From an uncultured Clostridia bacterium (GTDB taxonomy: Bacteria; Bacillota; Clostridia; Christensenellales; Borkfalkiaceae): a DNA stretch of 40,862 bases. Shown in pieces: positions 34,330 through 37,833 of this stretch. The stretch is from contig CALVRO010000013.1 in the NCBI GenBank assembly GCA_944358655.1, positions 1-40,862 of the forward strand, in the 5' to 3' direction. Position numbers and translations under genes: made by a program. A model generated the notes under the pieces. That model made no database searches and was not told where the DNA came from. It worked only from the letters and a program-made list of their open reading frames with translations. Within the stretch, counting starts at the first letter, position 1. Every line of letters starts with the position of its first letter.

Positions 34330-34367
34330 CAGCAAAAAAACCGCGGCACGCCGCGGTTTTTTTGCTG
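34330..34367 (-). terminator. Terminator of the pyruvate formate-lyase operon
   Basis: 17-bp perfect stem (arms 34330-34346 and 34351-34367, loop CACG) containing runs of seven A and seven T around a GC core. It would work in both directions and isolates the pfl operon from the shikimate operon. Confidence 0.88.
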
Positions 34368-34384: not shown

Positions 34385-34615
34385 TCAGAAAGATTCGTGA
34401 ATGGTCCTTGAAATGACGTCGTCCTGCTGCTCCTTGGTGAGCTTGTTGAAGTTGACGGCGTAGCCCGATACCCTCACCGTAAGCTGAGGATACTTTTCGG
34501 GGTGGGCCTGAGCATCCAACAGCGTATTTCTGTCGAATACGTTTACGTTGAGATGATGGCCGCCGTCGGCGACGTATGCGTCGAGCATGTTAACAAGATT
34601 ATCAACTCTGGACAT
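34385..34615 (-). CDS. Stand-alone glycyl-radical domain of pyruvate formate-lyase (GrcA-like)
   Basis: 76-residue protein equal to the C-terminal radical domain of PFL. The radical loop is RVSGYAVNF with Gly51 as the predicted radical site, and the segments GGHHLNVNV and [10 protein letters not shown] precede it as in full-length PFL. It ends TIHESF, like the PFL terminus. The ATG has its own GGAGG 8 bases upstream and starts 46 bases after the stop of the catalytic-core gene, which ends exactly where this domain should begin. Unlike proteobacterial GrcA (about 127 residues, a spare part for damaged PFL), it has no N-terminal extension and appears to be the only radical domain in this operon. 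It probably docks into the core as a separate subunit. Confidence 0.93.
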
Positions 34616-34661
34616 GATTTATTCCTCCCGTAACTATTGATTTTTTTTGTAAGGCGCGGCA

Positions 34662-36704
34662 TCAGTCGTCCTTGCCGAGCGAGGCGGGCGTCACCGAGAA
34701 GGTGTTTGAAATGCCGTCGCGCGAGTACTCGTAGGGCAGTTTAGCCACCGACTCCAGAGAGGCCAAAGCGCCGCTCGAATCCCTGCCGTGCATGGGGTTG
34801 GCGCCGGGGGCGAGGGGCGTGCCCGCCCTTCTTCCGTCGGGGGTGTTGCCCGTCTTTTTGCCGTAGACCACGTTGGAAGTTATCGTCAGTATGGACATGG
34901 TGGGAACGCTCTGACGATAGGTATACTGGCTCTTTATCTTGGTCATGAAGGTCTTTACGAGCCATACGGCTATCTCATCCACTCTGTCGTCGTTGTTGCC
35001 GTACTTGGGATAGTCGCCCTCTATTTTAAAGTCGACGGCCAGTCCCTCCTCGTTGCGCACGGGGTAGACTTTGGCGTACTTTATGGCAGAGAGCGAGTCG
35101 ACGGCGCACGAGAGCCCCGCTATGCCCGTGGCGAAGAAGCGGCGAACCTCGGTGTCGTGCAGGGCCATCTCCAGCGCCTCGTAGCTGTATTTGTCGTGCA
35201 TGTAGTGGATGAGGTTGAGGGTGTTTACATAAAGGCCCGCCAGCCAGTCCATCATCTGCTCGTACTTGGTCTTTACCTCGGCATAGTCGAGGGGCCCGTC
35301 GCCGAGCACGGGGGCGTACATGGGAGATACCTGCATAGCCTTGCCCGTCTTTTTGTCCTTGGCTATCTCGTCCTTGCCGCCGTTGATGGCATAGAGCAGG
35401 CACTTGGCGAGGTTGGCCCTTGCGCCGAAGAACTGCATGTCCTTACCCACGCGCATGCAGCTGACGCAGCAGGCTATGCAGTAGTCGTCGCCCATTTCGG
35501 GGCGCATGAGGTCGTCGCTCTCGTACTGTATGGCCGAAGTTTCGATGGAGGTCTTGGCGCAGAACTTTTTGAAGCCTGCGGGCAGGTTCTTCGACCAGAG
35601 CACAGTGAGGTTGGGCTCGGGCGCGGGGCCGAGGTTTTTGAGCGTGTGCAGTATCCTGAAGGAATTCTTGGTGACGAGCGTTCTGCCGTCTACGCCCATG
35701 CCGCCTATCGATTCGGTCACCCATGTGGGGTCGCCCGAGAAGAGCTCGTTATACTCCCTGATGCGCATGAACTTGACTATGCGCAGCTTCATTACGAACT
35801 GGTCGATGAGCTCCTGCGCCTCCCTTTCGGTGAGCACGCCCCGCCTCAGATCGCGCTCGATATAGATATCGAGGAAGGTGGAGTTCCTGCCTATGGACAT
35901 GGCCGCGCCGTTCTGATCCTTTATGGCGCCGAGGTAGCCGAAGTAGAGCCATTGGATGGCCTCCTTAGCGTTTTCGGCGGGGCGGGATATATCTATGCCG
36001 TAGGCGAGCGCCATTTCCTTGAGGGCGGAGAGCGCCTTGATCTGCTCGGAGAGCTCCTCCCTGTCGCGTATCTTGTCGGGAGTCATCACTCCGTCCATGT
36101 GCAGTTTATCTTCCTGCTTGCGCGCGATGAGGTAGTCGACGCCGTATAAGGCCACCCTGCGGTAGTCGCCCACTATCCTGCCCCTGCCGTAGGTGTCGGG
36201 CAGGCCTGTGAGTATGTGCGCCGAGCGCGCGCGGCGCATTTCGGGCGTGTACGCGTCGTACACTCCGTCGTTGTGCGTCTTGCGGTATTTGGTGAATATC
36301 TCCTTGACCTGAGGATCTATTTCGTAGCCGTACATGTTGAGGGCCTCTTCGGCCATGCGTATGCCGCCGAAGGGCTGAAGGGCGCGCTTGAAGGGCTCGT
36401 CGGTCTGAAGCCCGACTATCTTTTCGAGCTCCCTGTCGATATACCCCGCCTTGTGGCTGTTGACCTGCGAAACTATTTTGGTATCCGCCTTGAGGACGCC
36501 GCCTGCGGCGCGCTCCCTGGCGGAGAGCTCCATTATCTCGCTCCACAGCTTTTTTGTGGCCTCGGTGGGGCCCTCCAAAAAGCCGTCGTCGCCCTCGTAC
36601 GGCGTGTAGTTGCGCTGTATGAAGTCGCGCACGTTGACCTCGTCGTCGCTCCACTTTCCGGGTACGAAATCTTCCCATGCAGTATATTTCATAATTGTGG
36701 CCAT
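34662..36704 (-). CDS. pflB: Pyruvate formate-lyase catalytic core without radical domain
   Basis: Anaerobic enzyme splitting pyruvate with CoA into acetyl-CoA and formate; 680 residues against about 750 usual. The adjacent catalytic cysteines are Cys412-Cys413 in [10 protein letters not shown], followed by the normal [19 protein letters not shown]. The protein ends [11 protein letters not shown], the linker just before the glycyl-radical domain, and then TGA. The missing domain is the next gene. Two starts are possible. The ATG at 36704 has AGGAGG only 2 bases upstream. The ATG at 36692 (MKYTAWEDF, closer to homologues) is 14 bases from it. The gene sits between a thioredoxin-like gene and the radical-domain gene. 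Confidence 0.96.
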
Positions 36705-36742: not shown

Positions 36743-37024
36743 TTAATTGCCGTCACCTTTGCACTCTTCGAATTTGGACTCTATCCAAAGCGAGAGTATC
36801 TCCTCGGGCTGGTAGCCCGTGCATCTGGCTATCTCCCTGTCGCCGTCCCATAAAATGACGGTGGGCACGCGCGCGACGTTGTATTTTTCGACGGCCTCGG
36901 GCGAAGTTTCGATATCTATTCTCTCAAAAGGCACGCCCAGCCTTTCGGCTATGGCCGTCAGCTGAGGCAGCAGGGCATAACAGCCCGCGCAGCCTTCGCC
37001 GCTTATTTGGGTTATCTTCTTCAT
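36743..37024 (-). CDS. Thioredoxin-like protein in the pfl operon
   Basis: Small thiol-disulfide protein (93 residues, somewhat shorter than thioredoxin). The redox motif is CAGC (Cys12 to Cys15), the cis-proline is in [10 protein letters not shown], and YQPEEIL follows. The usual W-C-G-P-C is not present, so its redox potential and partners may differ. The ATG overlaps the pflA stop by 4 bp, making it part of the pfl transcript between activase and lyase. A role in keeping PFL cysteines or the activase cluster reduced is an inference from position only. Confidence 0.85.
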
Positions 37025-37746
37025 TTTATCGAGAGTATCTCCCTTGCGTTTTTTACCCTGTCGGGCTCGGGCGGCCTGACGCCTTCGAGGGCGTAGGGCA
37101 TGCCGAGTTTATTATACTTTACCTCGCCCATTGTGTGGTAGGGCAGCACCTCCACCTTCCGGATATTGGAAAGGGGCGAGATAAAGGCTTTGAGCCGCGA
37201 AAGACAGCCGTCGTCGTCGGTGATGCCCGGCACGAGAACGTGCCTTATCCATACCGGCTTATTTATTCGGGCGAGATATCCGGCAAAGGCCAGAATGTTT
37301 TTATTGGAGTGCCCCGTAAGCTTTTTGTGCTCGCCGTCGTCGATGTGCTTGATATCGAGAAGGACGAGATCGGTGACCTCGAGCAGCCCGTCGAACGCAC
37401 GGGAATTTTCTGCCGAAAACATTATGCCCGAAGTGTCGAGCGCGGTATGTATGCCCCTGGCCTTGAGGAGAGTGAAGAGCTCCCGTACAAACTCTGCCTG
37501 AAGCATGGGCTCGCCGCCGGAGACGGTTATGCCGCCTCCCCCCGCGAAGTAGTTTTTGTATTTGAGAACGCGCGAAGCGACTTCCTCAGCGGTGTACTCG
37601 GTGCCCGCCCCCACGGCCCATGTGTCGGGATTGTGGCAGTACAGACAGCGCATGGGACAGCCCTGCATGAACACCACGAAGCGTATCCCCGGGCCGTCGA
37701 CCGTGCCGAACGATTCAAATGAATGTATGTGACCGGTTAAAGACAT
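37021..37746 (-). CDS. pflA: Pyruvate formate-lyase activating enzyme
   Basis: Radical SAM enzyme (241 residues from the ATG at 37746) that uses a 4Fe-4S cluster and SAM to place the glycyl radical on PFL. The cluster motif C-x3-C-x2-C is CPMRCLYC, in the context DGPGIRFVVFMQG and CHNPDTW, with GGGGITVSGGEPMLQ for SAM. A longer frame runs upstream into the riboswitch leader and is not credible. Here it should act on the separate 76-residue radical protein rather than on a domain in cis. It is the first gene of the operon. Confidence 0.95.
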   Translation of the reverse strand: MSLTGHIHSFESFGTVDGPGIRFVVFMQGCPMRCLYCHNPDTWAVGAGTEYTAEEVASRVLKYKNYFAGGGGITVSGGEPMLQAEFVRELFTLLKARGIHTALDTSGIMFSAENSRAFDGLLEVTDLVLLDIKHIDDGEHKKLTGHSNKNILAFAGYLARINKPVWIRHVLVPGITDDDGCLSRLKAFISPLSNIRKVEVLPYHTMGEVKYNKLGMPYALEGVRPPEPDRVKNAREILSIK

Positions 37747-37793
37747 ATCCGAACCCTTTATCGCCCGCTTTGGCCGTTCCCGCCGTCGGGCGT

Positions 37794-37833
37794 AAAAAAA
37801 GGGCAAACGCTGACCATACGGTCATGATTGCCC
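37794..37833 (-). terminator. Riboswitch expression-platform terminator before pflA
   Basis: On the minus strand GGGCAA and TGACC pair with GGTCA and TTGCCC, and the stem is followed by seven T residues (37794-37800). The 5' arm shares bases 37829-37833 with the 3' strand of the ZTP aptamer, so forming one excludes the other. Ligand binding is predicted to turn expression on. Confidence 0.85.

Follow-up and report, generated by a model that had tools for sequence, protein, structure and literature searches.

A putative two-subunit pyruvate formate-lyase, with its glycyl-radical domain encoded by a separate gene, recurs in several bacterial groups

Introduction

Pyruvate formate-lyase (PFL) is the textbook example of an enzyme that is destroyed by oxygen through cutting of its own backbone. 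In E. coli the fused enzyme, PflB (TIGR01255, structure 1h16), is one chain of 759 residues. The locus considered here has the same active-site residues, the same radical motif and a pflA gene nearby, but carries the radical domain as a second gene. It lies in the window, the whole stretch of 40,862 nucleotides from an uncultured Clostridia bacterium that was analysed. A first-pass annotation of this DNA described a catalytic core that stops at LGKDD, followed after 46 bp by a gene for a 76-residue radical protein with its own GGAGG, which was said to encode exactly the residues missing from the core, and proposed that this trans arrangement is the normal state of the enzyme. The locus raises the question of whether it represents a broken gene, a spare part or a PFL that works as two subunits.

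Results

Anatomy of the locus

The arrangement of the genes (Table 1) bears out the description of a split PFL. The core aligns with positions 1-663 of the 744 positions of TIGR01255 (1086.7 bits), matches PF02901 with 701 bits, is identical to E. coli PflB at 439 of 671 residues in the alignment and ends at a point corresponding to about residue 678 of the E. coli chain. Its Cys412-Cys413, Arg176, Trp328 and Arg429 align with C418/C419, R176, W333 and R435 of E. coli PFL, all of them active-site residues. The small protein aligns with positions 666-743 of the same model and matches PF01228 with 81.7 bits. Its residues 5-75 align to residues 683-758 of the E. coli chain, so that it includes the helix preceding the radical domain, and by this alignment the small gene does supply exactly the missing 76 residues. 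Measured against the TIGR01255 family, the locus thus has a core with the Cys-Cys, Arg and Trp residues of the active site and a dedicated PflA, encoded by the next but one gene upstream of the core; the radical glycine is not in cis, the core chain stopping at model position 663.

Since the two genes are separated by 46 bp and lie in different reading frames (offset 1), stop-codon read-through cannot join them. The Shine-Dalgarno sequence of the core is placed only 2 nt before the first ATG, and translation may for this reason start at Met5 (36692), giving a core of 676 rather than 680 residues. The thioredoxin-like protein encoded upstream of the core matches PF00085 with 34.8 bits, above the cut-off.

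Table 1. Features of the split pyruvate formate-lyase locus in the window
Feature	Position	Strand	Remarks
PFL catalytic core	34662..36704	-	680 aa, CC pair 412/413, end LGKDD-TGA
Glycyl-radical subunit	34385..34615	-	76 aa, RVSGYAVNF
Intergenic gap	34616..34661	-	46 bp, core to radical gene
Shine-Dalgarno GGAGG of radical gene	34624-34628		reads CCTCC on +
Thioredoxin-like gene	36743..37024	-	93 aa, CAGC motif, between pflA and core
PflA, PFL-activating radical SAM enzyme	37021..37806	-	TIGR02493 322.7 bits, above cut-off
Terminator-like hairpin, CCGCGG..CCGCGG + T run	34334..34363	-	just after radical gene; identified by eye

The small protein as the sole PFL radical source found

A search of the whole genome with PF02901 gave a single match, the core, and PF01228 gave three matches, namely the two PFL halves and one frame of 727 aa that we take to be NrdD. 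The full-length PFL that the first-pass annotation had suggested looking for was not found by these profile searches of the draft genome (66 contigs, 92.63% complete). Both the small protein and the GrcA/YfiD and phage T4 Y06I proteins are small radical proteins that correspond to the C-terminal domain of PFL, are expected to act in trans and have phage relatives. E. coli GrcA, a protein of 127 aa whose long N-terminus is disordered, repairs oxygen-cut PFL. The radical protein of the window is shorter, at 76 aa, retains the helix that precedes the domain in PFL and is the sole PFL radical source found. It scores 96.7 bits against the GrcA/YfiD model TIGR04365 (cut-off 170), aligning with positions 64-125 of 126 only, and no fused PFL beside which it could serve as a spare part was found in the genome. 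Another match is the NCBIfam model NF038360 (GrcA3; 78 aa, type 'exception'), which resembles the small protein in length and sequence and aligns over positions 4-77 of 78; the score of 156.7 bits falls 1.3 short of the cut-off of 158, and relatives above this cut-off occur in 14 of 296 genomes of the Anaeroplasma class and 12 of 146 of the Gastranaerophilales class. The model names a cofactor and its description, as far as shown, omits the split core. That the small protein scores against the GrcA models would fit a mere GrcA-type spare accompanying a core without PFL function. Nevertheless, we consider this very unlikely, given that no other PFL to repair was found, that the small protein is without the long N-terminus of GrcA, and that the catalytic residues checked are conserved in the core, whose dN/dS is low (below).

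Recurrence of the split junction

The first-pass annotation had proposed looking for the same split in relatives, and it recurs: 105 loci, 100 of them distinct, have a core and, after it, a free radical gene. They come from Clostridia, Acholeplasmatales/Mollicutes, Erysipelotrichaceae and Gastranaerophilales, and the cultured species Anaeroplasma bactoclasticum is one of the organisms named in the hits. For each of these loci both genes were in hand; the set includes the window and the viral contig L208 and leaves out L203, L204, L210 and L219. A Shine-Dalgarno core precedes the small gene in 99 of the 105 loci, compared with 18% in shuffled sequence. Taking the core stop as reference, the small gene begins in frame 0 in 40 loci, in frame 1 in 38 and in frame 2 in 27. 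The median gap between the genes is 43 bp (range -1 to 661 bp). Many of the loci come from a similarity search with the core, from which the best 80 of at least 576 contigs (L035-L114) were taken, a sample that is biased since the query was itself a split core: 69 are split, with the free radical gene after the core, and nine are fused. L080 and L085 end before the place of the radical gene; both halves are near contig ends.

For the core, dN/dS lay between 0.01 and 0.10 in 14 hand-picked pairs, and for the small gene between 0 and 0.13; synonymous changes are near saturation in several of these pairs. By this measure both genes are under purifying selection. TIGR01255 was run on 17 split genomes; each gave one core above the cut-off, and none a fused copy. 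Further, the core tree of 119 rows places the window in a starred clade of 13 rows, all of them split, which excludes the case that could have undone the reading of the locus, namely an otherwise fused gene that a nonsense mutation interrupted only recently.

Taken together, these data leave little room for a single-chain product. The 105 loci rule out an assembly error or a fresh nonsense mutation, and small-gene starts in all three frames together with gaps of up to 661 bp rule out a fusion by stop read-through or frameshift. With the split present in many assemblies, with ribosome-binding sites before nearly all small genes, with the window inside a split clade and with purifying selection, we regard a recent nonsense mutation, an assembly error or recoding that would yield one chain as extremely improbable. 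The split PFL looks like a real, old design and not a broken gene. Trans action as the normal and sole state of the enzyme, as proposed, is thus well supported by the absence of a fused PFL from the window's own genome and the 17 others, by the recurring junction and by selection on both genes. For this analysis we defined split-type PFL as a core that ends at the LGK junction (with a tail or none), a free radical gene and a genome without fused PFL; the locus of the window shows the first two, and no fused PFL was found in its draft genome.

Distribution across taxa

To separate split from fused genes in genome surveys, the open-frame length of the NF038360 match was used. Among 200 genomes of the window's own order there were 73 matches at E < 1e-27, six of them split; five of these (G000, G045, G154, G181 and G218) are confirmed by sequence and G061 by frame only, and genomes with intermediate frames (G113, G118 and G185) were not counted as split. 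Three further samples were each centred on a genome picked for being split. The class of an Anaeroplasma genome (296 genomes) gave 104 matches, 40 split and 61 of fused length, with the ambiguous G271, G257 and G485 kept out of the split count. The class of a Gastranaerophilales genome (146 genomes) gave 12 matches, all with short frames, and cores were seen in seven of these (G239, locus L112; G558, G624, G634, G676, G680 and G683). The phylum of a Ruminococcus genome (398 genomes) gave 119 matches with two split, G885 and G714 having intermediate frames that were not counted. When picks were fetched, all 20 chosen as fused proved fused, and the 40 with a short frame comprised 34 with core and small gene together, four without a core nearby and two that look like broken fused genes. 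The latter, L203 and L204 (from G271 and G257), had been candidates for the split state on account of their short frames; they resemble fused genes with a broken frame and were rejected.

Within the window's genus, 20 of 37 genomes are split, nine are fused and eight have neither. In these eight congeners, some of which are incomplete (G005, G006, G008, G013, G014, G017, G033 and G034), the sole glycyl-radical match is NrdD-like; judged from these matches, PFL is lost or missing there. Given that nine congeners are fused and eight are without a PFL-type match, neither the split nor PFL itself is indispensable in this genus.

Core types and the thioredoxin-like gene

Split cores fall into two types according to how they end. 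Type I cores, among them L105 and L182, stop at LGKD(D) or a few residues from it. Type II cores have a tail after LGKD(D) with a shared G-[DE] stretch, for example FVGDLDIDL, which was found in seven of ten tails compared (L113, L114, L166, L170, L176, L185 and L200; L165 was incompletely displayed in this comparison). C-terminal tails were seen in L109-L114, L165-L172, L176, L177, L185-L191 and L200, several of them with cysteines.

Among loci with 900 bp or more of upstream sequence, a thioredoxin-like gene lies between pflA and the core in 60 of the 90 split ones and in none of the 29 fused ones; three of the 90 are viral and some genomes are counted twice. Where pflA lies upstream of a split core, the gene is present in 60 of 65 loci, being missing in L052, L055, L096, L097 and L263. 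It is likewise missing where pflA lies downstream or was not found; such loci include the type II loci, L070, L082, L173 and L182-L184. The encoded proteins have a C-terminal YQPEEI motif in the relatives compared. Among tree rows the gene accompanies 55 of 83 split and none of 21 fused cores; covariation with the split state on the tree was not significant (four independent pairs, p 0.5). As there are only four independent contrasts, the association may reflect shared ancestry.

Second and unlinked radical genes

The core is close to the radical gene in 29 of 30 radical-gene loci from the Anaeroplasma-class survey. The exception is G381, in which the two genes are ~99 kb apart on the same contig. 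We read the in-frame UGA codons of its core as Trp and G381, accordingly, as a putative UGA-recoded bacterium. Its radical gene (L268) adjoins genes for a radical-SAM protein, which by likeness would be PflA, an AdhE-like protein and a methionine sulfoxide reductase (MsrA). Second radical genes with no core in the stretch fetched were found in G432, G490 and G240. That of G490 (L266:5463-6755) is located directly before genes for a Fur-family regulator and rubrerythrin, and the extra gene of G240 has Crp-like and HxlR-like regulators nearby; the flanks of the second gene in G432 were read and no regulator or rubrerythrin was recognised beside it.

Such arrangements raise the possibility that the split serves dosage control, PFL activity being set by the amount of the radical subunit independently of the core. 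The separate Shine-Dalgarno sequence of the radical gene, the regulators beside the extra genes of G490 and G240 and the unlinked gene of G381 next to a radical-SAM protein are all consistent with this. We nevertheless consider it unlikely, since close linkage of the small gene behind its core is the rule in the 30 loci surveyed.

Evolution of split and fused states

In both the 119-row tree and a second, careful 61-row tree, the main split clade contains ten nested fused rows. The fused relatives in the genus are therefore not simply unsplit ancestors of the window locus, and the state has switched several times. Parsimony on the 119-row tree requires five switches when both directions are allowed and 17 fissions if re-fusion is forbidden; the 61-row tree gives six switches. 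The nested fused genes have a linker of seven residues, the same length as in most never-split genes. Either the halves would have re-fused or fission would have recurred at one linker.

The groups compared in AU tests were named after the tree had been seen, which makes the p values optimistic. With this proviso, a single clade of all split rows was rejected (p 3e-69), as was a clade of the main split rows without the nested fused rows (p 1e-67). One clade of all split rows plus the nested fused rows was weakly rejected (p 0.0145), and L182-L184 and L198 may on this account be separate fissions. For the nested fused rows as one clade the test gave p 0.03 with all ten and p 0.44 with nine, L057 being left out. 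The radical-domain tree (71 columns) is hardly resolved, with 2 of 106 branches starred.

This history bears on the possibility of neutral fission, by which chance broke the gene at a linker that tolerates it and the two chains bind tightly, with no advantage from a replaceable part. The coexistence of both states in one genus, the position of the junction within a variable linker of seven residues, the five or six switches on the two trees and the presumably strictly anaerobic hosts all favour it. Set against it are the long maintenance of the split in several phyla and the extras that go with it, namely the thioredoxin-like gene in nearly all operons with pflA upstream, the tails of type II cores and the second or unlinked radical genes. 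We regard neutral fission as a distinct possibility, if on balance somewhat improbable.

Viral contigs

The small radical protein is encoded on 16 IMG/VR contigs (L207-L222), and matches 1539 of 50,697 phage records. Phage T4 carries Y06I, which is longer. A split-type radical gene is found on contigs as large as those of L209 (332,864 bp) and L214 (230,252 bp). A core lies in the same fetched stretch on three contigs, L208, L210 and L219. L210 (3225-5258) and L219 have a complete split PFL with identical cores, the radical gene being located before the core. UGA codons of these cores align with Trp18, Trp54 and Trp328 of the window; UGA at three tryptophan places suggests that both derive from UGA-recoded phage. 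The flanks of six contigs were read (L207, L209, L210, L211, L212 and L214), and in L209, L210 and L214 the radical gene adjoins nrdD and an NrdG-like gene. PFL-derived formate feeds NrdD. Some neighbours of the radical gene match phage families (an RNA ligase and a polynucleotide kinase in L214, an RNA ligase in L212), and other neighbours gave no such match.

Relation to known structures and earlier work

The first-pass annotation knew of no enzyme built only in this way. This stands in so far as no description of a split PFL was found among the open-licence PMC literature matches listed; it needs qualifying in that the GrcA3 model and two PDB entries already exist. Both entries are named 'Formate acetyltransferase': 38la ends at LGKED and, over 256 residues, is closest to split cores, with up to 83% identity versus at most 76% to fused ones (296 genomes), and 38lb continues beyond LGK into a type-II-like tail. 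Neither was among the radical-domain matches in PDB, and no small partner chain for them was found in the PDB search. From their sequences we infer that 38la and 38lb are natural split-type cores and not truncated constructs, in which case another group has probably met the system.

E. coli PFL truncated after residue 733 or 695 and supplied with YfiD in trans had a kcat like that of intact PFL, but truncation to 695 prevented rescue by YfiD because it hindered the activation of YfiD by PFL-AE (PMC8683613). As the natural core ends even earlier than 695, the small protein described here must be activated differently.

Discussion

We consider it very probable that the locus encodes an obligate two-subunit pyruvate formate-lyase. 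The anatomy of the locus, the finding of one copy of each half and no fused PFL in the draft genome, the recurrence of the arrangement, selection on both halves and the proximity of pflA all support this assignment. The distant halves of G381, the reversed gene order on two viral contigs and the biochemical precedent of truncated E. coli PFL working with YfiD in trans point the same way. In such an enzyme the small protein would dock on the core at the site occupied by the C-terminal domain of fused PFL, PflA would place the radical on the glycine of RVSGYA in the small protein, and the radical would pass between chains to Cys413 of the core, so that the two-chain enzyme would convert pyruvate and CoA to acetyl-CoA and formate. 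The small protein would itself supply the helix and strand, and there would therefore be no damaged remnant to displace.

A possible consequence is that an oxygen cut at the radical glycine would lose the small protein only, and that its exchange would let the core be reused. Hints of such a strategy are the spare radical gene of G490 beside the genes for a Fur-family regulator and rubrerythrin, and the thioredoxin-like gene in the operon. The hosts of split PFL are presumably strict gut anaerobes, and the advantage of oxygen repair is therefore less obvious than in E. coli. On present evidence we would give this role close to even chances, leaning slightly against it. A broader view would be that there is a class of PFL that normally consists of a core and an exchangeable radical subunit and that gut anaerobes from several phyla have kept as a strategy against oxygen damage, with a dedicated thioredoxin, spare radical genes under oxidative-stress control and phages that ship the radical subunit, some together with nrdD and nrdG, to maintain the formate supply of the anaerobic ribonucleotide reductase while they infect the cell. 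As a whole this picture is conceivable, though rather doubtful.

The split PFL bears on how such genomes are read, as annotation may label the core a truncated PFL and treat the small gene as a spare cofactor. It also raises the question of how the activase recognises a free radical domain, and, being separable into its parts, lends itself to EPR and structural studies. With the vulnerable glycine on a tiny separate subunit, it becomes testable whether exchange of the radical domain is a repair strategy, and the arrangement may offer a route to repairable glycyl radical enzymes.
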